Positions 2,273-19,767 of a stretch of 64,000 nt of DNA are shown here, piece after piece; position 1 is the stretch's first letter; every line of letters begins with the position of its first letter. Origin of the DNA: Xanthomonas euroxanthea (GTDB taxonomy: Bacteria; Pseudomonadota; Gammaproteobacteria; Xanthomonadales; Xanthomonadaceae); assembly GCF_900476395.1 (NCBI RefSeq), contig NZ_UIHB01000001.1, forward strand, positions 897,385 through 961,384, given 5' to 3'. Position numbers and translations under genes: made by a program. The notes under the pieces were generated by a model, which made no database searches, was not told where the DNA came from, and saw nothing but the letters and a program-made list of their open reading frames with translations.

Positions 2273-2745
2273 ATGCCTACCTGCAACGCAGCATGCAGTG
2301 GTGGCAGGCGCGCGCGCCGCGCGAGCGGCTGATGCTGGGCGTGATGTGCGCCGCACTGGCCGCGTTTGTCGGCTGGTACGCGCTCTACACCCCGTTGCGG
2401 CACTGGCACGCCCAGGCGCAGGAGCGCTATGCCGTTGCGGCGCAGCTGGTCCTGGACGCCTCTGCACAGGCATCGGCAAAAGAGCCCGCCACCGCGCCGG
2501 GCACTGCGGCGTTGGCCGAGCGCATCGCCAGCAGTGCACGCGATGCCGGCGTCAGCATCACCTTGCAGCAGCGCAGTGCAGCGGGTGGGGTGGAGGTGCA
2601 GATCGATGCGGTCAGTGCCGTCACCTTGTTCGGCTGGCTGGAGCGGCTGCGCCAGGCGCATGGCCTGGTGCCGACCCAACTGCGCATCGTGCGCGACCAG
2701 GGCCAACTCCGGGTACGCTGCGGGTTTGCGGAGCCTGCACCGTGA
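2269..2745 (+). CDS. gspM: Type II secretion inner-membrane platform protein GspM/XcsM
   Basis: 158 residues, the usual size for GspM. It has a short cytoplasmic N terminus rich in Arg/Trp (MQWWQARAPRERL), one transmembrane helix (LMLGVMCAALAAFVGWYAL), a coiled-coil-like alanine-rich linker and a periplasmic ferredoxin-like domain ending with VTLFGWLERLRQAHGL. GspM pairs with GspL to form the assembly platform. It overlaps both neighbours by 4 bases. Confidence 0.88.
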   Translation: MNAYLQRSMQWWQARAPRERLMLGVMCAALAAFVGWYALYTPLRHWHAQAQERYAVAAQLVLDASAQASAKEPATAPGTAALAERIASSARDAGVSITLQQRSAAGGVEVQIDAVSAVTLFGWLERLRQAHGLVPTQLRIVRDQGQLRVRCGFAEPAP

Positions 2746-3461
2746 CGCGCCTGCGCTGGATCCTGATCTCCCTGCTGATGGTGGGTGTCGCGCTGCTGGC
2801 ATGGCTGCCGCTGCGCCTGGTGCTGCCGCGGGAGGGCCTGCCATTCTCGGCGCTGGACGTGGAGGGGCCGGTATGGGCCGGCACCTTGCGGCAGGTGCAA
2901 TGGCAAGGCGTCGCCTTCGGCGATGTCACGGTACGGCCGCGGCTGTGGCCACTGGTGCGTGGAGAGCGCCAGGTGCACCTGCAGGCCACGCAGCTGCAAC
3001 TGCTGCTGGTGGATGGCGCGCAACACGGCATCCGCGATGCGCAGGGCCAGTTGCTGTTGCGCCAGCCAGCGGGCATGGCGTTGATCGATCTGGCATTGGA
3101 GCTGCAGCAGGTGGATCTGTTGTTCAATGCCGCCGGCTGCGTGCAGGCCGCTGGGCGGGTTGGCCTGCAAGTGCTGGCAAGTGGGGCGGGCGAGCTGCCC
3201 GGGCTACCGCCGTTGCGCCTGACCGGACAACCGCGCTGCATGGGCGATACCGCCGTGCTGACCCTGCTGCCCGACGCCGCGCTGCCTGCCGGCGTACAGG
3301 CCGATGCACAGCTGCAGCTGTGGGGCGATGGACGCTGGCAGCTGCAGTCGCGTGTCGATCCGGGGCAGGACGCGGTGCTGGGCGTGGGCCTGCAACTGCT
3401 GGGCTTTGCCGCCACCCCGGAGCGCACCTTGCTGCGCGTCGACCAGGGGCAACTGCGCTGA
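2742..3461 (+). CDS. gspN: Type II secretion protein GspN/XcsN
   Basis: 239 residues, starting with GTG at 2742 inside the gspM stop (GTGA overlap). One N-terminal membrane anchor (RWILISLLMVGVALLAWLPL) is followed by the GspN motif region LDVEGPVWAGTLRQVQWQG and a beta-rich periplasmic part. GspN is an accessory bitopic protein found only in some type II systems. The next gene is not the secretin gspD: about 725 bases without a gene follow. In the Xps system of Xanthomonas gspD closes the operon after gspN, whereas in the Xcs system C and D come first, so this operon is more likely Xcs. That assignment is inference from gene order. Confidence 0.85.
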   Translation: MTRLRWILISLLMVGVALLAWLPLRLVLPREGLPFSALDVEGPVWAGTLRQVQWQGVAFGDVTVRPRLWPLVRGERQVHLQATQLQLLLVDGAQHGIRDAQGQLLLRQPAGMALIDLALELQQVDLLFNAAGCVQAAGRVGLQVLASGAGELPGLPPLRLTGQPRCMGDTAVLTLLPDAALPAGVQADAQLQLWGDGRWQLQSRVDPGQDAVLGVGLQLLGFAATPERTLLRVDQGQLR

Positions 3462-3922: not shown

Positions 3923-4186
3923 TCAAATCCACTGAATTGGTATTTGCCAGTCAGGGCCGTTGATCAGCAATGACAGGCGATGACCGTCCTGGGAGGGAGA
4001 CGGCATCGGCACCCACGGGGGGCCGTACGGGGTGCTCGCAGACAACAGATCGCAGGCGGTTCCGGACGTCCGGAACTGGTGGCCTGTGCGCGTGTGGGTG
4101 GGTTGCCCAACGCCGGGATCTGTCAGCGCTGATCGATCGGAATGCCAGCCGCGTCGTCGTCCAGCCATTCCACCTCAGGATCTCCC

Positions 4187-6895
4187 ATGTCACCTGTCCC
4201 GCGTGCCGCGTTGCGTTGTTGTTCGCCCTCCTCGCTGTCCCTCGCCATTGCGCTGTCGCTGCTTGCCTGCGGCGCCAACGCGCAGGCGCAGGAATCGCCG
4301 CCGGCGGCATCGGCGCAGATTTCCCAGCTCGACACCGTCAAGGTCACCAGCTCCTACCAAAAGAGCCTGATCACCGCGATGGATAACAAGCGCGACGACG
4401 TGCGCATGACCGATGGCATCTCCGCGCAGGACATCGGCAAGTTTCCCGCCGAGAACATCGCCGAGGCAATCCAGCGCATTCCCGGCGTGCAGATCTCCAC
4501 CATCAACGGGCGCGGCTCCACCATCAGCGTGCGTGGCCTGGGCCCGCAGTATTCGGCCACCACCATCAACGGCCAGGTGATCAAGAGCGCCGACTTCACC
4601 GATGGGTTCCGCTACGACATCATCCAGCCGGAGGTGGCCGCCGGGATCGAGGTGATCAAGTCGCCGTCGGCGGACATGGATGCCGGTGGCCTGTCCGGCA
4701 CGGTCAACATCAACACCACCAAACCGCTGGATTACCAGCAGACCAAGCTGCTGTTCTCGGCCAAGACCCAGTATGCGGAATTTTCCGGTGGCTCGCCCAC
4801 GCCCAAGGGCGTGCTGACCTATATCGACCAGTTCAAGGTCGGCGGCGGCGAACTGGGCGTGTTCCTCAGTGCCGGCTACCAGAAGCTCAAGGACCGCGCC
4901 GATTATCTGTGGATCGACCGCTGGTACACGCAGGACATCGACGCCGGCACCTTGTACATCCCGCGCCGCCCGCGCTATCGCTCGATCGAGCGCGAGACCA
5001 CCCGCAAGATGTTCAACGGCGGCCTGCAGTGGAAGCCCAACGACCAGCTGGAGATGAACCTCACTGCGCTGTATTCGCAGGACAAGACCGCCAACGACAT
5101 GAACCAGCTGGTGTACTCGTTCGAGCGCACCCCGCTGACGGTGCTGCAGACCAACGGCCTGACCGCCACGCAGGTGGCGGCATCGGACTACTGGCTGGAA
5201 AACAATCGCCAGATCGAACAACACGACCTGTCCACGCAGTTGCTCAGCTACGACTTCAAGTGGAAGGGCGATGCCTGGACGCTCAGTGGCGCGGCCAATT
5301 ACACCCAGGGCAAGACCGACGAAAACGAGCGCGCCGCGATCCTGGGCCGGATTCCCTCGGCGACATTGCTGGATACCTCCAATCCCGACGCGATCTCGCT
5401 GACCACCGATGCCGACGCCACCGATGCCAGCGCCTGGGACAAGGCCAATCTGGTGCGTAGCGAGTATCCCAACGGTTCCATCCAGTCGCTCAGCAACAAG
5501 GAATGGTCGCTGCAGCTGGATGCCGAACGGTATCTGGAGCTGGGTGCATTGAATGCGGTGCGCTTCGGCGCCAAATACCGCCGCGAGACCTTCGAGCGCG
5601 ATGTGCGCCGGCGCGACTTCCTGTATCTGCTCAGGACCGGTGCCGTATCGGGCTTCGACATGTTCCCGGAACTGTCGGCCGCCAACAGCACGGTGAGCAA
5701 CTTCCTCGACGGGCAGCTCGCCTCGCAGGACAGCTGGGTCACTCCGGATATCGCCGCCTACGCGCGCTCGCTGGCGGCCGCCGGCATCAGCGTGCCGGTC
5801 CTGTTCGCGCCGCAAAGCAGCTACAGCATCGAGAACGACATTTCCTCGGCCTATGCGATGGCGCGCATCGACACCGACATCGGCAGCATGCGCCTGCGCG
5901 GCAACCTCGGCCTGCGCTACGAAAACACCAAGCGCACCACCGACACCTACCTGACCCAGGCGCAGGCCGCCAGCGACGATGCCAATGTGGTGATCGGCAC
6001 CGCGCGTGCGCCGTACGACTATTCCAACTGGCTGCCCAGCCTGAACCTGGTGCTGGACATGCGCGAGGACCTGCTGCTGCGTTTTGCCGCCGCCAAGGTG
6101 CTGGTACGGCCGATCCTGGACAGCAATACCGCCATTGCCTCGACCATTTCCACCGGCACCAATACCGGCGGCACGACGACCTATGTCGTCACCCAGGGCC
6201 AGACCGATCTGAAGGCGCTGACCGCCGACCAGGCCGACCTGAGCCTGGAGTGGTATTACGGCAATGGCGGCGCGCTCACCGTGGCCGGCTTCTGGAAGAA
6301 CATCAAGAACGGCACCTTCAACAGCATCGTCTGCCCGGCCGCCTTCAACGGCACTGCGCTGTCCAGCAACGCGGCCGGCGACTGCGTGGACAGCGGCGGC
6401 GATATCTACGAGATCACCGCCACCACCAACGATCCGAGCAAGGTCAAGATCCGCGGCTACGAACTGGGCTGGACGCAATCGCTGGATGCCTGGTTGCCGA
6501 TCGACGGCTTCGGGGTGACCACCAACTTCACCCGGGTGATTCCGCAGCGCGATACCGATTTCCAGATCCGCAACCTGTCCGAACAGACCTGGAACGCCAC
6601 CGCGTACTGGGAGAGCACGCATTATTCGGCGCGCGTCTCGCTCAACCATCGCAGCGAGTACGAACAGGACAGCAGCGACAGCTTCTTCGCGCGCGAAGGC
6701 CACACCATGAAGGCGCGCACGCAGCTGGATGCGGTGCTTGGCTACCAGGTCAACGACAGGCTGAGCTTCCAGCTGGGTGGCCTGAATCTCACCAACCGCA
6801 CCGAGGAGGCGTACAAGGACATCGCCAGCCGCTGGCAGATGACCGGTGTCACCGGTCGCAGTTACTACCTGTCGATGCAGTGGGACATGCTGTGA
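4187..6895 (+). CDS. TonB-dependent outer-membrane receptor (Xanthomonas-Caulobacter type)
   Basis: 902 residues. A signal peptide (SLSLAIALSLLACGANAQAQ) is followed by a TonB-box-like stretch DTVKVTSS, the plug domain (AQDIGKFPAENIAEAIQRIP, then GRGSTISVRGLGP and INGQVIKS) and a 22-strand barrel ending in YYLSMQWDML. The wording of the plug is typical of the large oligosaccharide-uptake receptor family found in Xanthomonas and Caulobacter. Position next to a GH2, a GH89 and the nag genes suggests it imports GlcNAc-containing glycans. ATG 4187 was chosen because it gives a proper signal peptide; an in-frame ATG at 4142 would add 15 residues. The C terminus is Leu rather than the usual Phe. 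Confidence 0.9.
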   Translation: MSPVPRAALRCCSPSSLSLAIALSLLACGANAQAQESPPAASAQISQLDTVKVTSSYQKSLITAMDNKRDDVRMTDGISAQDIGKFPAENIAEAIQRIPGVQISTINGRGSTISVRGLGPQYSATTINGQVIKSADFTDGFRYDIIQPEVAAGIEVIKSPSADMDAGGLSGTVNINTTKPLDYQQTKLLFSAKTQYAEFSGGSPTPKGVLTYIDQFKVGGGELGVFLSAGYQKLKDRADYLWIDRWYTQDIDAGTLYIPRRPRYRSIERETTRKMFNGGLQWKPNDQLEMNLTALYSQDKTANDMNQLVYSFERTPLTVLQTNGLTATQVAASDYWLENNRQIEQHDLSTQLLSYDFKWKGDAWTLSGAANYTQGKTDENERAAILGRIPSATLLDTSNPDAISLTTDADATDASAWDKANLVRSEYPNGSIQSLSNKEWSLQLDAERYLELGALNAVRFGAKYRRETFERDVRRRDFLYLLRTGAVSGFDMFPELSAANSTVSNFLDGQLASQDSWVTPDIAAYARSLAAAGISVPVLFAPQSSYSIENDISSAYAMARIDTDIGSMRLRGNLGLRYENTKRTTDTYLTQAQAASDDANVVIGTARAPYDYSNWLPSLNLVLDMREDLLLRFAAAKVLVRPILDSNTAIASTISTGTNTGGTTTYVVTQGQTDLKALTADQADLSLEWYYGNGGALTVAGFWKNIKNGTFNSIVCPAAFNGTALSSNAAGDCVDSGGDIYEITATTNDPSKVKIRGYELGWTQSLDAWLPIDGFGVTTNFTRVIPQRDTDFQIRNLSEQTWNATAYWESTHYSARVSLNHRSEYEQDSSDSFFAREGHTMKARTQLDAVLGYQVNDRLSFQLGGLNLTNRTEEAYKDIASRWQMTGVTGRSYYLSMQWDML

Positions 6896-7063
6896 TGAGG
6901 CGCGAACAAGCGCTGTGCGGCCATGCGCCGCTGCGTGCGGCGGCGGCCAGGAGTGAGTGCAACGCCGCCGCCGTGATGAAAGCGCGTTATGCCGCGGCCG
7001 TGGGAGTGGCTGCGCCGCGCGCCCCTCATTGCATGCCTGCAGTGCAGTCGAGCGGTCGCTGTC

Positions 7064-9958
7064 ATGCGCAGGCGTGAGTTCCTTGCCGGCAGCGTCTGCG
7101 CCTCGTCGCTGCTAGGCGTGCCGGTGTTGCTGCCAGGCGCAGCGAGCGCCGCAACGACGCGCCTTGGTAGCGGCGACACGGCGCGTCCCGCACCACCGCC
7201 AGCGGGCATGGATGACGGCGGCCAATGGCTGGATCTGGACGAAGGTTGGCGCTTCCATGCCGGCGATCTGGCGTTGCCGCGCCTGCTTGCGCAAGACGAG
7301 ACCTACGACAACGCCAAGGCCGGCCGCGCCTGGGGGGCGGCGGCACCGGACTTCGACGACACCGGCTGGCGGCAACTGCAATTGCCGCACGACTTCGTGG
7401 TGGAGCAGGCGGTGCGCGCCGACGCCAATATCGCGCAGGGGTATCGCCCGCGCGGGATTGCCTGGTACCGACGCACGCTGCGGCTGGACGAGTCCCTGCG
7501 CGGCCAGGCGGTGGAGCTGCGTCTGGACGGCATTGCCAGCCATGCCACCGTGTGGGTCAACGGCATGCTGATGGCGCGCAGCTGGAGCGGCTACACCGGG
7601 CTGGTCATCGACCTCACGCCGGTCGCGCGCTACGGCAATGCCTTGAACAGCATTGCCATCCGCGTCGATGCCGAGGCCATGGATGGCTGGTGGTACGAGG
7701 GCGGCGGCATCTACCGGCACACCTGGCTGGTGCTGCGTGCGCCCTTGCATATCGCCGGCGACGGCCTGGCGGCGGTGCCGCGCGAAGGCGCTGGCGATCT
7801 CTGGCAGCTGCCGGTGCAGCTGGACCTGGTCAACAGCGGTGAACAGCCTGCCGAGGCGTGGGTGGATGTGGCGCTGCGCGACCCGAACGGTGCTGTCGTG
7901 GCGAGTGGCCAGACGCAACTGCGCGTGGCTGCATTCGGCACCGCGCAGGCGACGGTTAGCGTCGCGGTGGCGCAACCGCAGCGCTGGAGCGTGGACACGC
8001 CGGTGCTGTATCGCGTGCAGGCCAGCGTGCGTGGCGCAGACGGCCGCAGCGACCGTGCCGGGTGCGAAATCGGCTTTCGCAGCCTGCGCTTCGATGCCGA
8101 CCACGGCTTCTTCCTCAATGGCCGCCCGCTCAAGATCAAGGGCGTCTGCCTGCATCAGGACCATGCCGGCGTCGGTGTGGCGCTGCCCGATGCCTTGCAC
8201 GCGTTTCGCCTGCAGCGCCTGAAAGCGATGGGTTGCAATGCCATCCGCCTGCATCATGCGGTGGCACCGGAACTGCTGCAGGCCTGCGACCGGCTCGGCA
8301 TGCTGGTGATGGCCGAGAACCGGCTGTTCAATCCCGCACCCGAGTATGTGGCGCTGCTGCGCAGCATGGTGCGGCGCCAGCGCAACCATCCCAGTGTGTT
8401 CCTGTGGTCGCTGCTCAACGAAGAGCCGCTGCAGGGCACCGCCACCGGCTACGCCATCATCGCGCGCGCCGCCAGCGCGGTGCGTGCGCTCGACGACAGC
8501 CGTCCGATCACTGCCGGCATGAACGACGGCATGTTCGCCACCCGCGGCGCGGCCGATGTAGTGGACGTGCTCGGCTTCAACTACCGCCAGTCCAACTACG
8601 ACCGCGTGCATGCCGCGCGGCCACGCACGCCGATGCTGTCCAGCGAGGACACCAGTGCATTCCAGACGCGCGGGGCGTGGTTCACCGACCTGGATGCGCA
8701 TGTGGTGGCCGAAGACGACAGCCTGGCCGCGGACTGGGGCAACACCCATCGCCGCGCCTGGCAGCTGATTGCCGAACGCCCGTTCGTCGCCGGCAGCTTC
8801 GTGTGGACCGGCTTCGATTATCGCGGCGAACCCACCCCGTTCGAATGGCCGTCGGTGGGGTCGTTCTTCGGCATCATGGACCAATGCGGATTTGCCAAGG
8901 GTGCGTATTGGTTGCGCCGCGCGTTGTGGATCGACGATGCGCCGGTGCTGCACCTGTTGCCGCACTGGAACTGGCCCGGCCGCGAAGGCCAGCCGATCAA
9001 GGTGATGGCGTTCTGCAATGCCGCGCAGGTGGAGCTGTGGCTCAACGGCCGCTCGCTGGGGAAGCAGGTGGTGGATCGGGCGCAGCTGAATCTGTGGCAG
9101 GTGGACTATGCGCCGGGCGTACTCGAAGCGGTGGCCTGGCGCGATGGCCGCGAGGTGGCGCGAACGCGGGTGGAAACCACCGGCGCGGCGGTCGCGCTGC
9201 GGCTCACGCCGGACCGCACCCGGCTACGCGGCGATGGCCGCGATGCGCAACCGGTGACCCTGGAAGCGCTGGATACGCAAGGCCGCCACGTGCCCGATTG
9301 CAATGCACCACTGACGCTGCAGATCAGCGGTGGCCGCTTGCTGGGTGTCGGCAATGGCGACCCGAATGCGCATACGCCCGATCAGGGCATGCAAGTGGCC
9401 TTGTTCAACGGGTTGGCGCAGGCAATCGTGCAGGCCGGGCGTGGCGCAGGCGTGTTACGGCTGCAGGCGCGCAGCGCAGGCTTGCGCGATGCGGTGCTCG
9501 AGATCGCGTGCGCGGCCGTGCCGCTGCCAGCCACGGTGCCGATCGTGGCGCCGGCGATGGTGGTCGAAAGCTGGCGCCACACCGCCGCCTTCGCGCAGCC
9601 GCCGGCGCCGGATCTGCCGCGCCGCCCCAATGACAACAACAGCTGGAGCAATACGCTGCCCGGTACGCTGGAAACCGCACCCGAACGCGCCGGCTACGTG
9701 CTGTACCGCACCGAGTTCACGCCGTGGCAGGGTGTGCAGACCCACGGCGGCATGCTTGACCTGGGTCGTCTCAGCGGGCCGGTACAGGTATTTCTGGATG
9801 GCCGTGCAGTTGCCCAGGCACCTGCCGGCACGCCGATTCACGTGACGCTTGCACCCGCGACCGGCGCGCGCACGCTGGCGGTGATCCTGCAGGTCGCTGC
9901 CGATCAGCCGTTTGGATTCCACGACGTCGTCACCGTGCACTACCGGAACTCGCCATGA
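7064..9958 (+). CDS. Tat-exported GH2-family glycoside hydrolase (beta-galactosidase-like)
   Basis: 964 residues. The N terminus MRRREFLAGSVCAS has a twin-arginine motif before a hydrophobic segment, so export through Tat is likely. The GH2 layout is clear: jelly-roll sugar-binding domain (DFDDTGWRQLQLPHDF, RGIAWYRRTL), immunoglobulin-like domain, TIM barrel with the acid/base Glu in SLLNEEP (E453) and a nucleophile Glu in SSEDTS (E528), and C-terminal immunoglobulin-like domains. The WTGFDYRGEP/FGIMDQCGF part resembles beta-galactosidases of the GalB type, but GH2 also holds glucuronidases, mannosidases and glucosaminidases, so the substrate is open. It is translationally coupled to the GH89 gene (ATGA overlap at 9955). 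Confidence 0.85.
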   Translation: MRRREFLAGSVCASSLLGVPVLLPGAASAATTRLGSGDTARPAPPPAGMDDGGQWLDLDEGWRFHAGDLALPRLLAQDETYDNAKAGRAWGAAAPDFDDTGWRQLQLPHDFVVEQAVRADANIAQGYRPRGIAWYRRTLRLDESLRGQAVELRLDGIASHATVWVNGMLMARSWSGYTGLVIDLTPVARYGNALNSIAIRVDAEAMDGWWYEGGGIYRHTWLVLRAPLHIAGDGLAAVPREGAGDLWQLPVQLDLVNSGEQPAEAWVDVALRDPNGAVVASGQTQLRVAAFGTAQATVSVAVAQPQRWSVDTPVLYRVQASVRGADGRSDRAGCEIGFRSLRFDADHGFFLNGRPLKIKGVCLHQDHAGVGVALPDALHAFRLQRLKAMGCNAIRLHHAVAPELLQACDRLGMLVMAENRLFNPAPEYVALLRSMVRRQRNHPSVFLWSLLNEEPLQGTATGYAIIARAASAVRALDDSRPITAGMNDGMFATRGAADVVDVLGFNYRQSNYDRVHAARPRTPMLSSEDTSAFQTRGAWFTDLDAHVVAEDDSLAADWGNTHRRAWQLIAERPFVAGSFVWTGFDYRGEPTPFEWPSVGSFFGIMDQCGFAKGAYWLRRALWIDDAPVLHLLPHWNWPGREGQPIKVMAFCNAAQVELWLNGRSLGKQVVDRAQLNLWQVDYAPGVLEAVAWRDGREVARTRVETTGAAVALRLTPDRTRLRGDGRDAQPVTLEALDTQGRHVPDCNAPLTLQISGGRLLGVGNGDPNAHTPDQGMQVALFNGLAQAIVQAGRGAGVLRLQARSAGLRDAVLEIACAAVPLPATVPIVAPAMVVESWRHTAAFAQPPAPDLPRRPNDNNSWSNTLPGTLETAPERAGYVLYRTEFTPWQGVQTHGGMLDLGRLSGPVQVFLDGRAVAQAPAGTPIHVTLAPATGARTLAVILQVAADQPFGFHDVVTVHYRNSP

Positions 9959-12378
9959 TTGCTTCATCGTTTTTCCCCTCGTCGCCTGCGCGCCTGTTCG
10001 CCGGCGCCGTACTGGGCGCGTTGCTCGCCATTCCGCATCTGGTGCTGGCCGCACCGCCCGCGCAGGCGGTACTGCAACGCCTGATCGGCCCGCGCGCCGC
10101 TCAGTTCGAGATGACGACGGCGCCGCGTGGCGATGGCGCGGACTGGTACCGCATCGACGCCGGTGGCGATGCGGTGCGCATTGCCGGCTCCTCGCAGGTG
10201 GCCTTGGCGCGTGGCGCCTATGCCTATCTCGGCCAGGCCGGTGCGGTCTCGATGAGTTGGGAGGGCGACCGCGTGGCGCTGCCGGCGCAATGGCCGGCCT
10301 ACCGCAGCGGCCAGGTGCGCACGCCGTTTGCCCACCGCGCCTATCTCAACACCTGCACCTACGGCTACACCACGCCGTTCTGGGACTGGCCGCGCTGGCA
10401 GCGCGAGATCGACTGGATGGCGCTGCACGGCATCGACATGCCGCTGGCGATGGAAGGGCAGGAGGCGATTTGGCAGGCGCTGTGGCGCGAGTTCGGCGTG
10501 GGCGATGACGCGCTGGCGGAGTATTTCTCCGGCCCCGCGTTCACCCCATGGCAGCGCATGGGCAATATCGAAGGCTATCGCGCACCGTTGCCGCAGCACT
10601 GGATCGACAGCAAGCGCGTGCTGCAGACGCAGATCCTCACCCGCATGCGCGAGCTGGGCATGCAGCCGGTGCTGCCGGCGTTTGCCGGCTACGTGCCCAA
10701 GGCATTCGCGCAGGCGCATCCCAACGCGCGCATCTACCGCATGCGTGCCTGGGAAGGCTTCCACGAAACCTATTGGCTGGATCCGCGTGATCCCTTGTTT
10801 GCCCAGGTCGCGCGGCGGTTCCTGGAGCTGTACACGCAGGCCTATGGCGCAGGCGAGTTCTATCTGGCCGACGCCTTCAACGAGATGCTGCCGCCGGTGG
10901 CCGACGACGGCAGCGACGTGGCCGCCGCCAGGTACGGCGACAGCATCGCCAACTCCGACGCTGCACGTGCCAAGGCCGTGCCGCCAGCGCAACGCGACGC
11001 ACGCCTGGCCGAGTACGGGCAGGCGTTGTATCGCTCGATCGCGCAGGTCAACCCGCAGGCCACCTGGGTGATGCAGGGCTGGCTGTTCGGTGCCGACAGA
11101 GCGTTCTGGCAACCGCAGGCGATCGCCGCGTTTCTCGGCAAGGTGCCCGACGCGCGGTTGATGGTGCTGGACATCGGCAACGACCGCTATCCCGGCACCT
11201 GGAAGGCTTCGCAGGCCTTCGACAACAAGCAGTGGATCTACGGCTACGTGCACAACTATGGCGCCAGCAATCCGCTGTATGGCGATTTCGCGTTCTATCG
11301 GCAGGATCTGCAGGCCTTGCTGGCCGATCCGGACAAGCGCAATCTGCGCGGCTTCGGTGTGTTCCCGGAAGGGCTGCACAGCAACTCGGTGGTCTACGAG
11401 TATCTCTATGCGCTGGCCTGGGAAGGACCGCGGCAGTCCTGGTCGCAATGGCTCGCGCAATACACCCGCGCGCGCTACGGCCGCAGCGATGCGGCCTTGC
11501 TGCAGGCCTGGTCGGATCTGGAAGCGGGCATCTACCAGACCCGCTACTGGTCGCCGCGCTGGTGGAACAAGCGTGCCGGCGCCTACCTGCTGTTCAAGCG
11601 TCCGACTGCCGACATCGTCGGCTTCGACGACCGCCCCGGCGACCCGCAACGCCTGCGCCGCGCCATCGATGCCTTGCTGCAGCAGGCCGGCCGCTATGCC
11701 GATGCACCGCTGTACCGCTATGACCTGATCGAAGACGCGCGGCACTACCTGAGCCTGCATGCCGACCGTCAATTGCAGGCGGTGGTGCAGGCCTACGACG
11801 CCGGCGAGTTCGCGCGTGGCGATGCGCTGCTGGCGCGCACCACGCAACTGGTGCAGGGGCTGGATGCACTGGTCGGCGGCCAGCATGAAACCCTGGCCGA
11901 CTGGACCGGCCAGGCCGCCGCGGCCGCCGGCAACGATGCCGCATTGCGTCGCGCCTATGTCGGCAATGCGCGTGCGCAGGTCAGCATCTGGGGCGGCGAC
12001 GGCAACCTGGCCGATTACGCGTCCAAGGCGTGGCAGGGCATGTACGCGGATTTCTATCTGCAGCGCTGGACACGCTTTCTGCGCGCGTATCGCGCCGCGC
12101 GCAAGGCCGGCACGCCGTTCGACGCAGCGGCGGTCAACACGCAGCTTGCAGCCTGGGAACGCCAATGGGCCGAGCAGGACGCGCTGCCGAAGCGACAGCC
12201 ACCGCGCGATCCCTTGGCCTTGCTGCGTACGTTGCTGGCGCAGGTGGATGCGCAGGATGGCGTGCAGAACGCAGCGGGAAGCGCCAGGCAAGACGCGACG
12301 CAAGGCTTCGACCAGGGCAACCTGCAAGAAATTGCGCACGGCGCCGCGCACAGCGCCACGCAAGGAACTGCGCAATGA
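9955..12378 (+). CDS. Secreted alpha-N-acetylglucosaminidase, GH89 (NAGLU family)
   Basis: 807 residues. A signal peptide (LFAGAVLGALLAIPHLVLAA) is followed by the NAGLU N-terminal, catalytic barrel and C-terminal helical domains. Family signatures are strong: HRAYLNTCTYGYTTPFWDWP, the block FYLADAFNEMLPP with the first catalytic Glu (E310) and FGVFPEGLHSNSVVYEYLY with the second region Glu (E472). GH89 enzymes remove terminal alpha-linked GlcNAc with retention; the human member degrades heparan sulfate. The last ~35 residues (ATQGFDQGNLQEIAHGAAHS) are a low-complexity Gln/Ala tail not typical of the family. The gene lies between GH2 and a HGSNAT-like acetyltransferase. Confidence 0.9.
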   Translation: MIASSFFPSSPARLFAGAVLGALLAIPHLVLAAPPAQAVLQRLIGPRAAQFEMTTAPRGDGADWYRIDAGGDAVRIAGSSQVALARGAYAYLGQAGAVSMSWEGDRVALPAQWPAYRSGQVRTPFAHRAYLNTCTYGYTTPFWDWPRWQREIDWMALHGIDMPLAMEGQEAIWQALWREFGVGDDALAEYFSGPAFTPWQRMGNIEGYRAPLPQHWIDSKRVLQTQILTRMRELGMQPVLPAFAGYVPKAFAQAHPNARIYRMRAWEGFHETYWLDPRDPLFAQVARRFLELYTQAYGAGEFYLADAFNEMLPPVADDGSDVAAARYGDSIANSDAARAKAVPPAQRDARLAEYGQALYRSIAQVNPQATWVMQGWLFGADRAFWQPQAIAAFLGKVPDARLMVLDIGNDRYPGTWKASQAFDNKQWIYGYVHNYGASNPLYGDFAFYRQDLQALLADPDKRNLRGFGVFPEGLHSNSVVYEYLYALAWEGPRQSWSQWLAQYTRARYGRSDAALLQAWSDLEAGIYQTRYWSPRWWNKRAGAYLLFKRPTADIVGFDDRPGDPQRLRRAIDALLQQAGRYADAPLYRYDLIEDARHYLSLHADRQLQAVVQAYDAGEFARGDALLARTTQLVQGLDALVGGQHETLADWTGQAAAAAGNDAALRRAYVGNARAQVSIWGGDGNLADYASKAWQGMYADFYLQRWTRFLRAYRAARKAGTPFDAAAVNTQLAAWERQWAEQDALPKRQPPRDPLALLRTLLAQVDAQDGVQNAAGSARQDATQGFDQGNLQEIAHGAAHSATQGTAQ

Positions 12379-12499
12379 ACAGATCCGCATTGCACCTGAT
12401 GCTCGTGCAGGAGCACGGTAGCGCCGATGCAAGGACGCAGGGCATAGGCAGCACCTATGCATGTCGTCCCCACCGGCAGTCACTGGGCAAGGAGCTGCG

Positions 12500-13666
12500 A
12501 TGAACGCACACCCATTCCCTGCTGCAGCTGGCACCGCAACCACACCGCCAACGCGCGAACGCTTCCTGTCGCTGGACGTGTTCCGCGGCCTGACCATCTT
12601 CCTGATGATCCTGGTCAACACCGCAGGACCCGGCGCGCAGCCATATGCACAGCTGACCCACGCGGCCTGGTTTGGCGTCACGCTGGCCGATCTGGTGTTT
12701 CCCTCGTTCCTGTTCGCCGTCGGCAGCGCAATGAGTTTTGCGTTGGCCACCCGCATGCCGCATTGCCAGTTCCTCGGCCGCGTGGGCAGGCGCGCCGCGC
12801 TGATCTTCTTATGCGGCGTGCTGATGTACTGGTTTCCGTTCTTCCGTCCGCAACCCGACGGTGGCTGGGCGTTCACGGCGGTCGATCAACTCCGCCTGAC
12901 CGGCGTGCTGCAGCGGATCGGCCTGTGTTATCTGCTCGCGGCGCTGCTGGTGCGCTATCTGCCGCCACGCGGTATCGCGCCGGTCTGCGTGGCGCTGCTG
13001 CTGGGCTACTGGGCAGCGCTGTATGCGTTCGGCCAGCCCGGCGCGGAGTTGAGTAAGACCGGCAATGCCGGGACCCGGCTGGATCTGTGGCTGTACGGGC
13101 GCGCGCATCTGTATCGCAAGGATGATGGCTTCGACCCCGAGGGCCTGCTCGGCACGCTGGCGGCCACGGTCAACGTGCTGGCCGGTTATCTGAGCGGGCG
13201 CTTCCTGCAGCGGCACGGCAAGACCGCTGCCGCCACGCGCAGCATGCTGCTGGCGGGCGCGGGGCTGGTGCTGCTGGCGCTGCTCTGGCACCCGGCCTGG
13301 CCGCTGTCGAAGAAGCTCTGGAGCGGGTCCTTCGTCGCCTGCACGGTGGGCCTGGATCTGCTGGCGCTGGGCGTGCTGGTCTACCTGCTGGAGCTGCGTG
13401 GCTGGACCGGCGGCAGCGGGTTTTTCACCGTGCTGGGGCGCAACCCGCTGGCGATCTATCTGTTCTCCGAATTGTTCGTGGTGGTGTTGCGGCTGCTGCC
13501 GGCCGGCAGCTCCGGCCTGGACCTGTACGCCTGGGCCGGCATCCGCGTGTTCCAGACCATCGCGCCGGGCCCCCTGGGGTCGCTGCTGTGCGCGCTGAGC
13601 TACACGCTGCTGTGCTGGGGCGTGGGCTGGTGGATGGACCGGCGGCGTTGGTACCTGCGGCTGTGA
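12500..13666 (+). CDS. nagX: NagX/HGSNAT-family membrane acyltransferase (COG4299, DUF5009)
   Basis: 388 residues with about ten hydrophobic helices. RERFLSLDVFRGLTIFLMI, then THAAWFGVTLADLVFPSFLF and LRLTGVLQRIGLCYLLAAL follow the pattern of human heparan-alpha-glucosaminide N-acetyltransferase, including the His in the HA(A/S)W motif (H54 here), which is the acetyl-accepting residue in HGSNAT. The human enzyme carries acetyl groups across the membrane onto terminal alpha-glucosamine so that NAGLU can remove it. NagX homologues are common in nag loci, and their role in bacteria is not settled. Start at 12500 follows an AAGGAG site at 12489. Confidence 0.82.
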   Translation: MNAHPFPAAAGTATTPPTRERFLSLDVFRGLTIFLMILVNTAGPGAQPYAQLTHAAWFGVTLADLVFPSFLFAVGSAMSFALATRMPHCQFLGRVGRRAALIFLCGVLMYWFPFFRPQPDGGWAFTAVDQLRLTGVLQRIGLCYLLAALLVRYLPPRGIAPVCVALLLGYWAALYAFGQPGAELSKTGNAGTRLDLWLYGRAHLYRKDDGFDPEGLLGTLAATVNVLAGYLSGRFLQRHGKTAAATRSMLLAGAGLVLLALLWHPAWPLSKKLWSGSFVACTVGLDLLALGVLVYLLELRGWTGGSGFFTVLGRNPLAIYLFSELFVVVLRLLPAGSSGLDLYAWAGIRVFQTIAPGPLGSLLCALSYTLLCWGVGWWMDRRRWYLRL

Positions 13667-13825
13667 CGGCATCGCCAGCCAGGCAATGGCGCAGCCACTG
13701 GGCGCCTGCACGCGCCGGTGACGGGAAGCGGGCGTCGACCACGGCGTCCAGTCAGCGGGCCGCGGGAACGCGGGTCAGCGCCTGCCGCGCTGCCGGGGCC
13801 GACTGCGGCTAATGCGCCGCAGGCA

Positions 13826-13849
13826 AATTGGTACTATATTGGACCTAAC
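13826..13849. promoter_or_regulatory. Candidate GntR (NagR) operator upstream of nagR
   Basis: AATTGGTACTATATTGGACC followed by TAA forms an imperfect inverted repeat (TTGGT ... ACCTAA), similar to HutC/DasR-type GlcNAc-regulator sites built on TGGT/ACCA half-sites. It lies about 30 bp before the nagR start, where autoregulation would be expected. The embedded TACTAT/TATATT could serve as a -10. Confidence 0.42.
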
Positions 13850-13877
13850 GAATCCAAGTCGGTCCGGAGGACAGGCA

Positions 13878-14645
13878 ATGGCCAAACCGAAAACCGAAGC
13901 CAGGACGGACACCGACCCCCGGATGGACGCGCTGACGCTGGATGCCTCCGCGCCGACGCCACTGTATCTGCAACTGGCGAGCAAGCTGGACGAGCAGATC
14001 CGCGGCGCGCAGTGGAAGGCCGGCGAGGCGCTGCCGGCCGAGCGCCAGCTGTGCGAGCGGCTGCAGATCTCGCGGGTGACCCTGCGCCAGGCGGTGGACG
14101 TGCTGGTCGAACAGGGTCTGGTCTCGCGTCGGCAGGGCGCCGGCACCTTCGTCACCACGCAGATCCAGCATCAGCTCAGCGGCCTGACCAGTTTCAGCGA
14201 GACGCTGCGCATCAAGGGCTACGAGCCCGGCACCCGCTGGCTGGAGCGGCGGCTGCGCCCGGCGCATGGCGAAGAGATCCTGCGCCTGGGGCTGTCGCCG
14301 GACGCGGCGGTGGCCTCGCTGACCCGCCTGCGCAGCGCCGACGAGCGCGTCATGGCCTACGAGCACGCAGTGCTGCCGCAACGCATCGTCGCCGACCCGC
14401 AGCAGATCGGCGATTCGCTCTACAGCTATCTGGATGCACAGGGCACCCCGGTGGTGCGCGCCCTGCAGTATTTCCGCGCGATCAATCTGCCTGCGCGGCT
14501 GGCCGAGCACCTGCGCATGAAGACCGGCGAGGCGATCCTGCACGTGGTGCGCGTGGGCTATGCGCGCGACGGCAGTGCGATCGAATTGACCGACACCTAT
14601 TGCCACAACGATTTCTACGATTTCGTCGCCGAACTGCGTCGCTGA
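13878..14645 (+). CDS. nagR: GntR/HutC-family regulator of the GlcNAc regulon
   Basis: 255 residues. The winged helix-turn-helix comes first (PLYLQLASKLDEQIRGAQWK, LPAERQLCERLQISRVTLRQ, GLVSRRQGAGTFV), then a UTRA effector domain (LSGLTSFSETLRIKGYEPGT). This architecture is shared by NagR/YvoA/DasR, which bind amino-sugar phosphates. It stands directly before nagP and is followed by the rest of the pathway, so control of GlcNAc use is the natural role. The start at 13878 has GGAGG at 13865. An upstream in-frame ATG at 13812 would add residues not seen in the fold and would run through the operator. Confidence 0.88.
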   Translation: MAKPKTEARTDTDPRMDALTLDASAPTPLYLQLASKLDEQIRGAQWKAGEALPAERQLCERLQISRVTLRQAVDVLVEQGLVSRRQGAGTFVTTQIQHQLSGLTSFSETLRIKGYEPGTRWLERRLRPAHGEEILRLGLSPDAAVASLTRLRSADERVMAYEHAVLPQRIVADPQQIGDSLYSYLDAQGTPVVRALQYFRAINLPARLAEHLRMKTGEAILHVVRVGYARDGSAIELTDTYCHNDFYDFVAELRR

Positions 14646-14691: not shown

Positions 14692-15969
14692 ATGACTACC
14701 GCCAGGCCCGCAAATCCCGTTGTCTCGATCGCCATCGTCGGCGTGCTGTTCTTCATCATCGGCTTCTTCACCTGGATCAACGGGCCGCTGATCACCTTCG
14801 TGCGGCTGGCGTTCGACCTCAACGAGGTCAATGCCTTCCTGGTGCTGATGGTGTTCTACCTGTCGTACTTCTTCCTGGCGCTGCCGGCGTCGTGGATCCT
14901 CAAGCGCACCGGCATGAAGAAGGGGCTGGCGCTGAGCCTGGTGGTGATGGCGGTGGGCGCGGCCGGCTTTGGCCAGTTCGCCACCCAGCGCTGGTATCCG
15001 GGCGCCTTGGGCGGCCTGTTCGTGATCGGCAGCGGCCTGGCGCTGCTGCAGACGGCGATCAATCCGTACATCAGCATCCTCGGGCCGATCGAAAGCGCGG
15101 CGCGGCGGATCGCGCTGATGGGTATCTGCAACAAGATCGCCGGCATCCTGGCGCCGATCCTGATCGGTTCGCTGGTGCTGCACGGCATCGGCGATCTGTC
15201 TGCACAGGTGGCCAGCGCCGATGCCGGCACCAAGGAACAACTGCTCACCGCCTTCGCCGCCAAGATCCACGCACCGTATCTGGTGATGTCCGGCGTGCTG
15301 CTGTTGCTGGCGATCGGCGTGCTGTTCTCGCCACTGCCGGAGCTGCGGGCCTCCGAAGCCAATGCCACGCCCGGCAGCGCGGCCGGCGTGCAGAAGTCCA
15401 GCATCTTCCAGTTCCCGCATCTGTGGCTGGGCGTGCTGTGCCTGTTCGTCTATGTGGGCGTGGAAGTGATGGCCGGCGATGCGATCGGCACCTACGGCCA
15501 CGGTTTCGATCTGCCGCTGGACAGCACCAAGATCTTCACCTCCTACACGCTGGGCGCGATGCTGCTGGGCTATCTGGCCGGCCTGGTGCTGATCCCGCGG
15601 GTGATCTCGCAGGCGCGCTACCTCAGCGTGTCGGCGGTGCTGGGCGTGCTGTTCTCGCTGGGCGCGCTGCTGACCCACGGCTATGTGTCGGTGGGCTTCG
15701 TGGCCGCGCTCGGTTTCGCCAACGCGATGATGTGGCCGGCAATCTTTCCGCTGGCCATTCGCGGGCTTGGCCGCTTCACCGAGATCGGCTCGGCACTGCT
15801 GGTCATGGGCATTGCCGGCGGCGCGATCATTCCGCAGCTGTTTGCCATTCTCAAACAGCACTACGACTTCCAGGTCGTGTTCGCTGCGCTGATGGTGCCG
15901 TGCTATCTGTACATCCTGTTCTATTCGCTGCGCGGTTACCGTGTGGGCCTGCCGGCCCAGGCCAAGTGA
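14692..15969 (+). CDS. nagP: N-acetylglucosamine MFS permease
   Basis: 425 residues, 12 predicted membrane segments. The N terminus IAIVGVLFFIIGFFTWINGPL and the FYLSYFFLALPASWILKRTGMKKGL loop are characteristic of the fucose/glucose-galactose/GlcNAc branch (FHS) of the major facilitator family, in which NagP lies. It would carry GlcNAc across the inner membrane without phosphorylation, so a separate kinase is needed. It sits 46 bp after nagR and 40 bp before nagQ. Confidence 0.87.
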   Translation: MTTARPANPVVSIAIVGVLFFIIGFFTWINGPLITFVRLAFDLNEVNAFLVLMVFYLSYFFLALPASWILKRTGMKKGLALSLVVMAVGAAGFGQFATQRWYPGALGGLFVIGSGLALLQTAINPYISILGPIESAARRIALMGICNKIAGILAPILIGSLVLHGIGDLSAQVASADAGTKEQLLTAFAAKIHAPYLVMSGVLLLLAIGVLFSPLPELRASEANATPGSAAGVQKSSIFQFPHLWLGVLCLFVYVGVEVMAGDAIGTYGHGFDLPLDSTKIFTSYTLGAMLLGYLAGLVLIPRVISQARYLSVSAVLGVLFSLGALLTHGYVSVGFVAALGFANAMMWPAIFPLAIRGLGRFTEIGSALLVMGIAGGAIIPQLFAILKQHYDFQVVFAALMVPCYLYILFYSLRGYRVGLPAQAK

Positions 15970-16009
15970 ACCGGGCGGCATGATGCGTTCCGACGAACAA
16001 GGTACACCC

Positions 16010-17077
16010 ATGCGCAGGCCCACCATCAAAGATGTCGCCGAGCGCGCCAAGGTCTCGTTGAAGACCGTGTCGCGCGTGATCAACAACGAACCTTCGGTGA
16101 TGCAGGCCACGCGCGCGCGCGTGCTGCGCGCCATTGCCGATCTGGACTACGAACCCGATCCGTCCGCGCGCAACCTGCGCAGCGGCACGCCGTTCGTGAT
16201 CGGCCTGGTCTACGACAACCCCAACCCGTACCACATCATCGGCATCCAGAATGGCGTGCTGGCCGCCTGCCGCGAAACCGGCTTCGGCCTGCAGATCCAT
16301 CCCTGCGATTCCACCTCGCCATTGCTGGCCGAAGAACTGGCCGAATGGGTACAGCGCTCGCGGCTGGCCGGCGTGGTGCTGACCGCACCGATGTCCGAAC
16401 GCCCCGAGCTGATGGCCGGTCTGGCCGCGCGCGGCATCAAGAGCGTGCGCATCATCGCCGCCACCGACGATCCGGGCGATGGTCCCTGCGTGTATATCGA
16501 CGACCGCGCTGCCGCCTACGAGATCACCGAGCATCTGGTGCAGCTCGGCCATCAGCGCATCGGCTTTTTGTGGGGCGGCCCGCAGCACCGCTCCAGTGGC
16601 GAGCGCTATGCCGGCTATGAAGCCGCGTTGAAGGACTACGGCATCACCCTGGACAAGCACCTGGTGATTCCCGGCGATTACACCTTCGACGACGGCTTCC
16701 GTGGCGCGCGCCGCCTGCTGTCGCTGCGCGAGCCGCCGACCGCCATCTTCGGCAGCAACGACGAAATCGCCGCCGGCGTGCTGGCCGCGGCCAAGTCCAC
16801 CGGCATGAACGTGCCGTACCAATTGTCGATCGCCGGCTTCGAGGACAGCCCGTTCTCGCGCCAGTCCTGGCCGGCGCTGACCACCGCCAAGCAGGCCACC
16901 GACGACATCGCACGGCACGCCGCACGCCTGTTGATCAGCCAGTTGCGCAGCGATGCCTACGACGACCAGCCCGCGCAACTGCAGAACCGCGGCTTCGTGC
17001 CGCAGTTGGTGGTGCGCGGTTCCACCGCACCGGCGCAGACGCCGGCCGCCAAATCCTTTCCCCCCGAATCCGCCTGA
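16010..17077 (+). CDS. nagQ: LacI-family transcriptional regulator of the nag locus
   Basis: 355 residues from the ATG at 16010 (preceded by AAGGT). N-terminal helix-turn-helix and hinge: PTIKDVAERAKVSLKTVSRV and DLDYEPDPSARNLRSG. The rest is a periplasmic-binding-protein-like sensor domain (GLVYDNPNPYHIIGIQNGVL; GFLWGGPQHRSSGERYAGY; AIFGSNDEIAAGVL). In-frame ATGs at 15980 and 15983 are possible earlier starts. A LacI regulator inside a nag operon with GntR-type NagR matches the two-regulator scheme known in Xanthomonas. A good LacI-type palindrome lies before the TonB receptor at 19768. Confidence 0.85.
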   Translation: MRRPTIKDVAERAKVSLKTVSRVINNEPSVMQATRARVLRAIADLDYEPDPSARNLRSGTPFVIGLVYDNPNPYHIIGIQNGVLAACRETGFGLQIHPCDSTSPLLAEELAEWVQRSRLAGVVLTAPMSERPELMAGLAARGIKSVRIIAATDDPGDGPCVYIDDRAAAYEITEHLVQLGHQRIGFLWGGPQHRSSGERYAGYEAALKDYGITLDKHLVIPGDYTFDDGFRGARRLLSLREPPTAIFGSNDEIAAGVLAAAKSTGMNVPYQLSIAGFEDSPFSRQSWPALTTAKQATDDIARHAARLLISQLRSDAYDDQPAQLQNRGFVPQLVVRGSTAPAQTPAAKSFPPESA

Positions 17078-17082
17078 GCCTG

Positions 17083-18111
17083 ATGAGCCTTCCCACCGAA
17101 ACCGAGACCTTGATGTTCCGCGAGGCGGCGCAGACTGCCGACGTGGTCGCCGCACAGTTCGCCCGTAATGCCGACACCGTTGCTGCACTCGCGCAGTCGC
17201 TGCGCGATACGCCGCCGCCGTTCGTGGTGACCTGCGCGCGCGGCAGTTCCGATCACGCCGCAACCTACGCCAAGTATCTGTTCGAAACCCAGCTCGGCAT
17301 CGTGACGGCCTCTGCATCGCCGTCGGTGGGCTCGGTCTATGCAGCGCCGCTGCAATTGCGCGGCGCGCTGTACATCGTGATTTCGCAGTCGGGCAAGAGC
17401 CCGGACCTGTTGCGCAATGCCGAGGCCGCCAAGGCGGCCGGCGCGCGCGTGGTCGCCCTGGTCAATGTGGAGGATTCGCCGCTGGCGCAACTGGCCGAGG
17501 TGGTGATTCCGCTCGGCGCCGGCCCGGAAAAAAGCGTCGCCGCCACCAAGAGTTATCTCGCCTCGCTGGCCGCCGTGCTGCACCTGGGCGCGGTGTGGAA
17601 GAACGACCCGGCCCTGCTCGCGGCGGTGGATACATTGCCGCAGCAGTTGCGCAGCGCCTGGCAGGCCGACTGGTCCGCTCTCACCGCCGGCCTGGTGCCC
17701 GCGCACAACCTGTTCGTGCTCGGGCGTGGCCTGGGCCTGGGCGCGGCGCAGGAAGCGGCGCTGAAGTTCAAGGAAACCTGCGGCCTGCATGCCGAAGCGT
17801 ACAGTTCGGCCGAGGTCAAGCATGGCCCGATGGCGCTGGTGGGGCCGGGCTTCCCGGTGCTGGTGTTCGCCCAGCCCGACGAGACCGGCGCCGGCACACG
17901 TGCGCTTGCTGCCGAATTCCGCGCCCGTGGCGCGCAGGTGTGGCTGGCCGCGCCCGATGGCGATCTGCCGCTCGTCGATGCCGTGCATCCGGCCAGCGCA
18001 CCGCTGCTGACCGTGCAGAGCTTCTACCGCGCGATCAACGCGCTGGCCCTGCAGCGCGGCCATAATCCCGATCTGCCGCCGCATTTGAACAAGGTCACGG
18101 AAACCGTTTGA
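17083..18111 (+). CDS. nagB-II: Glucosamine-6-phosphate deaminase, SIS-domain type (NagB-II)
   Basis: 342 residues with two SIS sugar-isomerase domains and no glutaminase domain, unlike GlmS. Visible SIS signatures are ARGSSDHAATYAKYL and SQSGKSPDLLRNAEAAK in the first domain and FVLGRGLGLGAAQEAALKFK with SAEVKHGPMAL in the second. This class replaces classical NagB in GlcNAc pathways and converts glucosamine-6-P to fructose-6-P and ammonia. It starts 5 bp after nagQ. The stop overlaps a possible TTG start of nagA. Confidence 0.88.
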   Translation: MSLPTETETLMFREAAQTADVVAAQFARNADTVAALAQSLRDTPPPFVVTCARGSSDHAATYAKYLFETQLGIVTASASPSVGSVYAAPLQLRGALYIVISQSGKSPDLLRNAEAAKAAGARVVALVNVEDSPLAQLAEVVIPLGAGPEKSVAATKSYLASLAAVLHLGAVWKNDPALLAAVDTLPQQLRSAWQADWSALTAGLVPAHNLFVLGRGLGLGAAQEAALKFKETCGLHAEAYSSAEVKHGPMALVGPGFPVLVFAQPDETGAGTRALAAEFRARGAQVWLAAPDGDLPLVDAVHPASAPLLTVQSFYRAINALALQRGHNPDLPPHLNKVTETV

Positions 18112-18113
18112 AC

Positions 18114-19479: not shown

Positions 19480-19499
19480 CACAAATGCAGGCATTTGTG
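19480..19499. promoter_or_regulatory. Perfect 20-bp palindrome (9+2+9) upstream of TonB receptor 2
   Basis: CACAAATGCAGGCATTTGTG: nine paired bases on each side of AG. It is AT-richer than its surroundings and lies just upstream of TTGACA at 19508. It looks like a dimeric-regulator site. It does not match the LacI-type box 40 bp downstream, so a second regulator is likely. Confidence 0.5.
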
Positions 19500-19556: not shown

Positions 19557-19767
19557 ATCAGGAGCGTGCTCCGACTTCATGAAAGACGTTGCCGGCCGGT
19601 CATGCATCGGCCTGGCGCCTTGCCCCGCACGCCGCCACCGGCCTGCGGGAAGACGCTGCTCGCCGTCCGGTGTACAGGGGGACGGATCGCGGGTGTGGCG
19701 CGCGCTCTGCGCGTTCTCAAGCAACCGGACGGTTGCGACCCGACGCATCAGCCAAGAGGTCCACGCA

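Follow-up and report, generated by a model that had tools for sequence, protein, structure and literature searches.

A cassette pairing NAGLU and HGSNAT homologues in Xanthomonas euroxanthea, with the plant GIPC head group as candidate substrate

Why would a Xanthomonas strain carry, side by side, homologues of the two human lysosomal enzymes HGSNAT and NAGLU, and on which glycan would they act? The question is raised by a locus of Xanthomonas euroxanthea contained in a 64,000-nucleotide stretch of contig NZ_UIHB01000001.1 (positions 897,385 to 961,384; hereafter, the window), in which a cassette of four genes, encoding a TonB-dependent receptor (TBDR1), an enzyme of glycoside hydrolase (GH) family 2, a GH89 enzyme homologous to NAGLU and the HGSNAT homologue NagX, precedes a core of genes for N-acetylglucosamine (GlcNAc) catabolism. 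A sequence-only reading of this DNA had proposed that the pair follows the human pathway and that it targets head groups of glycosyl inositol phosphoryl ceramides (GIPC) in plants. As detailed below, a functional pairing of GH89 and NagX is well supported. On balance, we think it probable that the cassette is a periplasmic module that first acetylates and then cuts, with the GIPC head group, or the inositol phosphate glycan released from it, as its most likely substrate.

The cassette and its two central enzymes

Coordinates are positions in the window, and all genes of the feature lie on the + strand. Families were assigned by Pfam and NCBIfam profile scans against curated cut-offs, and signal types (Tat-like, Sec-like) were judged by eye. 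The cassette consists of:

4142-6895, + strand: TBDR1, TonB-dependent receptor, first cassette gene (TIGR01782, 731 bits against a cut-off of 310)
7064-9958, + strand: GH2 enzyme, predicted periplasmic beta-galactosidase (Pfam GH2 domains; NCBIfam GalA; Tat-like N-terminus MRRREFL)
9955-12378, + strand: GH89, predicted alpha-N-acetylglucosaminidase with a Sec-like N-terminus, Glu310 and Glu472 (NAGLU_N, NAGLU, NAGLU_C)
12461-13666 (likely start 12500), + strand: NagX, HGSNAT homologue, membrane protein (HGSNAT_cat; HGSNAT 8vkj; hydropathy)

All three NAGLU Pfam domains of the GH89 protein are above cut-off (415, 172 and 66 bits), and its best solved relative is human NAGLU (4xwh, E = 3e-105); the bit score is 356 against the human enzyme and 228 against the bacterial CpGH89. 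Glu310 (DAFNEMLPP) and Glu472 (FPEGLHSN), which the sequence-only reading had picked out as catalytic residues of a secreted enzyme, indeed align with the corresponding glutamates of human NAGLU, which we take to be the catalytic E316 and E446, and both are invariant in all eight GH89 sequences aligned. The window protein is a predicted alpha-N-acetylglucosaminidase.

The gene directly downstream was likewise recognized correctly as encoding an HGSNAT-type membrane protein with a reactive histidine. NagX exceeds the HGSNAT_cat cut-off (42.3 bits against 22 in Pfam) and is matched by human HGSNAT (8vkj, E = 2e-22), with His54 and Asn40, counted from the start at 12500, falling on H297 and N286. 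His54, Asn40, Asp64, Arg132 and Glu214 are invariant in all 17 aligned rows, and Asp212 is nearly so; by alignment and an offset of 28, these residues correspond, respectively, to H269, N258, D279, R344, E471 and D469, which PMC11357348 names, in its own numbering, as residues of the human acetyl-CoA site. Human H586 is replaced by serine in the window protein, which also fails the NCBIfam equivalog NagX_SO_3504 (136.7 bits against a cut-off of 480). At the chosen threshold, hydropathy analysis of NagX resolves eight distinct hydrophobic stretches, a few of which could each hold two helices. Because His54 lies in a loop free of lysine and arginine and the C-terminus is basic, the sequence would fit a periplasmic active site.

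TBDR1 is predicted to be an outer-membrane importer of the glycan, and the GH2 protein passes the NCBIfam test for beta-galactosidase GalA (NF041462; 1044 bits, cut-off 900). The open reading frame (ORF) of GH2 opens at 6989, and the gene overlaps that of GH89 by 4 bases.

Linkage of GH89 and NagX across genomes

Public genome contigs were scanned with a GH89 alignment, and NagX was sought near the hits with a model built from eight GH89-linked proteins. Among the best 80 of at least 564 GH89 encoders (66 Pseudomonadota and 14 Bacteroidota loci), NagX lies within about 4 kb of GH89 in 65 of the 66 Pseudomonadota loci, so that the adjacency across genomes which the sequence-only reading had set as a check is borne out and a lack of co-occurrence, named there as grounds for refutation, is not what we see. 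In the 66th locus (L112) the contig is cut at the GH89 end and no NagX is visible. The two genes share a strand in 60 of the 65 loci, and their adjacency extends over several orders of Pseudomonadota. A sample of 396 Pseudomonadota genomes gave nine with GH89, seven of the window's type and two that are about 28-30% identical to it; all seven genomes of the window's type have NagX in the cluster, compared with any NagX relative in 35 of the 389 others (Fisher test, 9e-8). The same seven are also the seven best NagX scorers, in an order that is biased by the presence of some of them in the NagX alignment. In the sister genus NagX adjoins GH89 in all four regions (tblastn), and the notion that the two families are at least 75 kb apart outside the genus was therefore wrong.

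In a quick tree of 59 NagX rows, some on long branches, the GH89-linked proteins fall into two groups, one alphaproteobacterial-Xanthomonas and a separate one from Alteromonas and Rheinheimera (three changes, three of them forced). Separate NagX lineages thus appear to have joined the same GH89 type; a swap of one NagX for another could account for the pattern as well. We rejected chance, or a bystander role of NagX in a nag cluster, because 37 of 49 alphaproteobacterial loci lack NagA, NagB and NagP and because GH89-linked NagX belongs to separate lineages. Thirty of the 49 contain none of the five core genes.

Also rejected was the idea that GH89 as such predicts NagX, which is missing from divergent and Bacteroidota GH89 loci. 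In the order sample, 25 genomes with GH89 belong neither to the genus nor to its sister genus; the regions of 11 of these were read, all with divergent GH89 (27-31% identical) and none with NagX in the region. All 14 Bacteroidota genomes do encode NagX relatives, though not near GH89. For Confluentibacter (L176), a NagX scoring 491 bits was located some 25 kb from GH89, judged by a contig of equal length. GH92 is found within the GH89 locus in 13 of the 14 Bacteroidota loci (L164-L183), and in one Flavobacterium the gene after GH89 (L164:12093-14015) fuses glucosamine-6-phosphate isomerase and PIG-L de-N-acetylase domains.

Within the genus, the cassette behaves as a unit that is either present or absent beside the GlcNAc core. 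Its order, TBDR1-GH2-GH89-NagX followed by the core, and the presence of a TonB receptor, a GH2 enzyme and GlcNAc catabolism around the pair, noticed already from the sequence, were confirmed in coordinates and families by the profile scans. The surrounding genes are:

78-3458: type II secretion components K, L, M and N, upstream of the cassette
13812-14645, + strand: GntR/UTRA regulator, NagQ-like, first gene of the GlcNAc core (Pfam GntR, UTRA)
14692-15969, + strand: NagP-like major facilitator superfamily permease (NCBIfam gluP over cut-off; NagP_SO3503 355 bits, below its cut-off of 625)
15941-17077, + strand: LacI-family regulator, NagR-like (Pfam LacI, Peripla_BP_3)
17083-18111, + strand: NagB-II-like glucosamine-6-phosphate deaminase (SIS domains; NagB_SO3506 360 bits, below its cut-off of 430)
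18108-19268, + strand: NagA, N-acetylglucosamine-6-phosphate deacetylase (TIGR00221, 321 bits against 226)
19579-22431, + strand: second TonB-dependent receptor, TBDR2

The genus sample comprised 35 genomes including that of the window, the 34 others being mapped with the window proteins (tblastn, 1e-5). GH89 is present in 16 of the 35, each time with an HGSNAT_cat match on the same strand no more than about 2.5 kb away, and TBDR1, GH2, GH89 and NagX occur together in all 15 GH89-bearing regions of the other genomes. At the same threshold, none of the four genes is found at the nag locus of the 19 genomes devoid of GH89. Overall, the cassette is whole in 16 of the 35 genomes and the nag loci of the other 19 lack it, while five GlcNAc core genes are retained in all 34 mapped genomes, GntR in all 19 cassette-less ones and NagP in all 35. 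The distance from secretion gene N to NagQ is 295-391 bases in 15 of the 19 cassette-less genomes and about 10.4 kb in the window; the remaining four are arranged otherwise. On a core-gene tree with four outgroup genomes, the cassette switches six times, at least four of the switches being forced by starred branches. These counts themselves do not separate gain from loss; the presence of the cassette at the same place in the outgroup favours losses.

Three GH89-less genomes of the genus (G013, G014, G025) carry a different strong HGSNAT_cat match at another place in the genome; window NagX finds no match in these regions at 1e-5, and the rows of the NagX tree do not include them. One GH89 match in the genus (G023) contains an in-frame TGA and NagX is matched in pieces in L072 and L078, so that these copies may be broken or mis-sequenced. 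The identity of secretion genes K-N to those of the window is either about 75-95% or about 50%, a division that largely tracks presence or absence of the cassette (exceptions, L080, L087 and L094), a pattern that block exchange would produce. In L068, L048 and L049 the identity of NagP drops to 65%, compared with 87-98% in most mapped relatives, as if it had been replaced.

As for regulation, the word ATTGGT is conserved upstream of both 4142 (TBDR1) and 13863 (GntR gene) in 18 aligned sequences, which is only a lead to shared control and a possible operator half-site common to the two genes. A palindrome, GTTCCGGACGTCCGGAAC, stands before TBDR1 (4059-4076) and another, CACAAATGCAGGCATTTGTG, before TBDR2 (19480-19499). 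A NagR-type operator motif gave four matches against 2.4 expected, about chance level. No kinase gene lies within the cassette or the GlcNAc cluster; no genome-wide search for one was made.

Neighbours in alphaproteobacteria and the candidate substrate

The clue to the substrate comes from relatives, namely the 49 alphaproteobacterial GH89-NagX loci (genomes G659-G707). Neighbour families were confirmed on one or two representatives each (Pfam for GH115 and GH29; NCBIfam equivalog cut-offs exceeded by one IolB, IolD, IolE and IolG each), the remainder being tblastn matches. A family of TonB-dependent receptor length lies about 3 kb upstream in 40 of the 49 loci, one representative having been checked with Pfam (L130:7066-9822). 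GH115 was found in 18 loci, GH2 in 16, GH29 in 11, IolB and IolE in seven each and IolD in six; GH115 or an Iol gene is present in 25. Under uniform scatter, the 73 genome-wide GH115 copies in the 49 genomes would place 0.4 loci beside the pair, and IolD, over cut-off in 11 genomes, 0.05, compared with the 18 and 6 seen, these being Poisson expectations that ignore kinship and gene islands. The neighbours are arranged differently in Asticcacaulis, Caulobacter, Novosphingobium and Sphingomonas, which argues for a repeated association of the pair with these genes. By the same tblastn set, GH115, IolB, IolD and IolE are absent from 12 NagX loci without GH89; none of them is found in the 11 divergent-GH89 or the 14 Bacteroidota loci either. 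Recurrent ORFs without a family match were dropped from the analysis; they may be antisense to real genes, and at least one overlaps a GH2 gene (L153).

GH115 copies form two score classes, 395-441 and 466-510 bits, and the GH89-linked copy is of the lower class in the six loci checked (L114, L117, L127, L129, L130, L148). Eight of the 11 IolD-bearing genomes (G661, G662, G663, G667, G668, G676, G678, G682) carry NagX, IolD and a lower-class GH115 together on a single contig, in a span of 16-30 kb. Linkage of GH115 and inositol catabolism to GH89-NagX, which we propose as the mark of a GIPC locus, is thus found in eight alphaproteobacterial genomes and not in that of the window. Five of the eight clusters were read further (L216-L221). 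By tblastn, a sugar ATP-binding cassette (ABC) importer and an IolA-type aldehyde dehydrogenase are each present in four of the five and IolG in three; GH92 occurs in G668, G682 and G676, as does a phosphatase, of the histidine acid type in G668 and of the alkaline type in the other two, whereas neither GH92 nor a phosphatase was found in the stretches read of G661 and G663. Family scans of some cluster proteins confirmed GH92 and both phosphatase families; IolG is over cut-off in G668 and methylmalonate-semialdehyde dehydrogenase in G682. The importer is below every specific cut-off, and inositol as its cargo is therefore only a guess.

GIPC are described as the predominant glycosphingolipids of plant membranes. 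According to PMC9113257 and PMC12201980, inositol phosphate in their head group is followed by glucuronic acid (GlcA), then by mannose, glucose, glucosamine (GlcN) or GlcNAc, and then by hexoses and pentoses. Barley GIPC, whose inositol phosphoryl ceramide (IPC) carries hexuronic acid (HexA), include HexN-HexA-IPC, HexNAc-HexA-IPC and Hex-HexN(Ac)-HexA-IPC, and their largest portion is the free-amine B series, Hex-HexN-HexA-IPC (PMC12201980). Deacetylation is the presumed origin of the GlcN form (PMC9113257). GlcNAc alpha1-4 GlcA can be cleaved by a bacterial GH89 (PMC8225759), and infected plants build up inositol phosphate glycans (PMC11496612). An enzyme of the alphaproteobacterial clusters can be matched to each unit of this structure: GH2 to the hexose, NagX and GH89 to GlcN or GlcNAc, GH92 to mannose, GH115 to glucuronic acid, and the phosphatase with the Iol proteins to inositol phosphate. 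The linkages in question are alpha1-4 to GlcA and alpha1-2 to inositol. A GIPC substrate fits these clusters, and the need for an acetylase would follow from the free amine of the sugar.

The natural substrate would be the Hex-GlcN(Ac)-GlcA-inositol-P head group or the inositol phosphate glycan freed from GIPC, and the reactions may be periplasmic and proceed as follows. TBDR1 would import the oligosaccharide and GH2 would remove its capping hexose, probably beta-galactose. NagX would then move acetyl from cytoplasmic acetyl-CoA, via the reactive histidine, to the amino group of the terminal alpha-glucosamine, after which GH89 would cleave off alpha-GlcNAc, the product continuing via NagP, NagA and NagB-II. 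For Xanthomonas, this substrate is an extrapolation from its alphaproteobacterial relatives, because the window's genome lacks GH115 and IolD; if the bacterium uses GIPC at all, it would harvest only the hexose and the amino sugar. More broadly, it is possible, at slightly under an even chance in our estimate, that plant-associated bacteria have a dedicated pathway for GIPC head groups that follows the lysosome-like logic of acetylation before hydrolysis with NagX of separate lineages. Its fullest version as read (TonB-dependent receptor, GH2 or none, GH92, NagX, GH89, GH115, phosphatase, sugar import and inositol catabolism) would be that of Asticcacaulis and Caulobacter, with a partial one in Sphingomonas and Novosphingobium and a short hexose/amino-sugar version in Xanthomonas.

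A number of observations weigh against the GIPC proposal or the pairing beneath it. Among the 49 alphaproteobacterial loci, 24 have neither GH115 nor an Iol gene, GH92 occurs in only three and a phosphatase in only three, and kinship inflates the Poisson figures for GH115 and IolD. GH115, IolB, IolD and IolE are absent from the 17 gammaproteobacterial GH89-NagX loci, and the genome of the window has no GH115 and no IolD over cut-off; the evidence on substrate comes from relatives whose GH89 and NagX are about 57% and 58% identical. The GIPC guess of the sequence-only reading has gained indirect support from GH115, IolB/D/E/G and GH92 beside the pair in alphaproteobacteria and from the published GIPC structures, though none from the window's own genome. 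NagX is near GH89 in none of the 14 Bacteroidota loci. Order-wide, the broad Pfam family HGSNAT_cat is only weakly associated with GH89 (27 of 34 genomes with it, 119 of 215 without), and eight NagX rows without an adjoining GH89 lie inside the alphaproteobacterial-Xanthomonas group. Physical linkage by itself can produce co-loss of the cassette genes. Marine Alteromonas also has the pair, and there are published data on free glucosamine, considered next.

According to Price et al. 2022 (PMC9007349), five bacteria need NagX to grow on free glucosamine; NagA takes part in four of the five, and NagP or another sugar transporter likewise in four. The kinship with the human pathway proposed for the cassette holds for the protein families, whereas these fitness data are read by their authors as acetylation of free periplasmic glucosamine. 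NagX might then acetylate only free glucosamine for entry through NagP as GlcNAc, with GH89 merely feeding GlcNAc or cutting alpha-GlcN before NagX acts. The Xanthomonas cassette does adjoin a GlcNAc cluster, and such a role may apply to the GH89-linked type as well: the only NagX of Caulobacter vibrioides DSM 9893 at E = 1e-6 is GH89-linked, and the NagX in the C. crescentus fitness data, obtained with another strain, is therefore probably of this type. We nevertheless consider this explanation unlikely. In the genus, NagX is missing wherever GH89, GH2 and TBDR1 are missing at the locus, on several branches, yet NagP, NagB and NagA are kept; the 37 alphaproteobacterial pairs without NagA, NagB or NagP in the locus, and the 12 GH89-less NagX loci without GH115 or IolB/D/E, speak in the same direction. 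A double role of NagX, in free glucosamine and in glycan use, is plausible.

Alternatively, the pair may act as described on another alpha-GlcN(Ac) glycan, such as glycosylphosphatidylinositol (GPI) anchors or fungal inositol phosphoceramides, in which GlcN adjoins inositol, or a polysaccharide of bacterial or algal origin; we regard this as improbable. In its favour, head groups of GPI or fungal lipids would also suit the inositol catabolism, mannosidases and phosphatases, the pair occurs in marine Rheinheimera as in Alteromonas, and glucosamine is known in GIPC as one of the sugars attached first to inositol (PMC6151786). GPI anchors and GlcN-core fungal lipids contain, to our knowledge, no glucuronic acid, and would leave GH115 in 18 of the 49 loci unexplained. 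GH115 is known from glucuronoxylan and could instead mark a mixed plant-wall island.

It is very improbable that NagX is a sugar permease, as Tannerella MurT and Stenotrophomonas NagF are read by their authors, NagF (35% identical to MurT) being reported as a GlcNAc permease from mutant growth (PMC13055268) and a distant NagX-MurT relation being noted by Price et al., who argue against a transport role of NagX (PMC9007349), five of whose residues matching the human acetyl-CoA site (PMC11357348) are invariant in the 17 rows. If Stenotrophomonas NagF is a relative of NagX, the family may need re-examination (PMC13055268).

Should the GIPC proposal be true, it would provide genes, an order of steps and testable relatives (Caulobacter, Sphingomonas) for bacterial consumption of GIPC, as well as enzymes for the analysis of GIPC glycans, and GH89-linked NagX would gain a physiological acceptor beyond free glucosamine.

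Comparison with known systems

In the literature searched, we found no description of a bacterial route consuming GIPC head groups, nor, in its open-licence part, of the GH89-HGSNAT pairing or its GIPC reading; the primary papers on Xanthomonas GlcNAc use fall outside that scope. The Xanthomonas GlcNAc utilization locus (NagQ, NagP, NagR, NagB-II, NagA), of which NagQ and NagR are described in two species (PMC5343134), is the core downstream of the cassette, whereas the cassette is an accessory block beside it, absent in the 19 genomes noted above. The window enzyme belongs to the same family as the bacterial GH89 CpGH89 and Bt3590. CpGH89 acts on GlcNAc alpha1-4 Gal and has a tryptophan-bearing loop thought to be important (PMC8225759); in our alignment, the window enzyme has no tryptophan at the matching stretch.

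The GIPC phospholipase C of Botrytis (PMC11496612) attacks the same plant lipid and frees inositol phosphate glycans, a possible feedstock for bacteria, but is a fungal phospholipase rather than a part of glycan catabolism. The NagX glucosamine pathway of Price et al. (PMC9007349) shares with the cassette the family, the conserved histidine, and NagP and NagA downstream; unlike in that pathway, cassette NagX is accompanied by GH89 and a TonB-dependent receptor, often also by GH2.

A close counterpart is the human lysosomal degradation of heparan sulfate, in which HGSNAT and NAGLU, of the same two families and with the same catalytic residues, pair acetylation with the removal of alpha-GlcNAc. 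No heparinase or sulfatase was over cut-off among the neighbour proteins scanned. The two human enzymes fail in Sanfilippo syndrome types B and C, for which the bacterial proteins, if the proposal is true, would be compact models; unlike their human relatives, they are encoded in one cassette, and the neighbours of their alphaproteobacterial homologues point to an inositol glycan.

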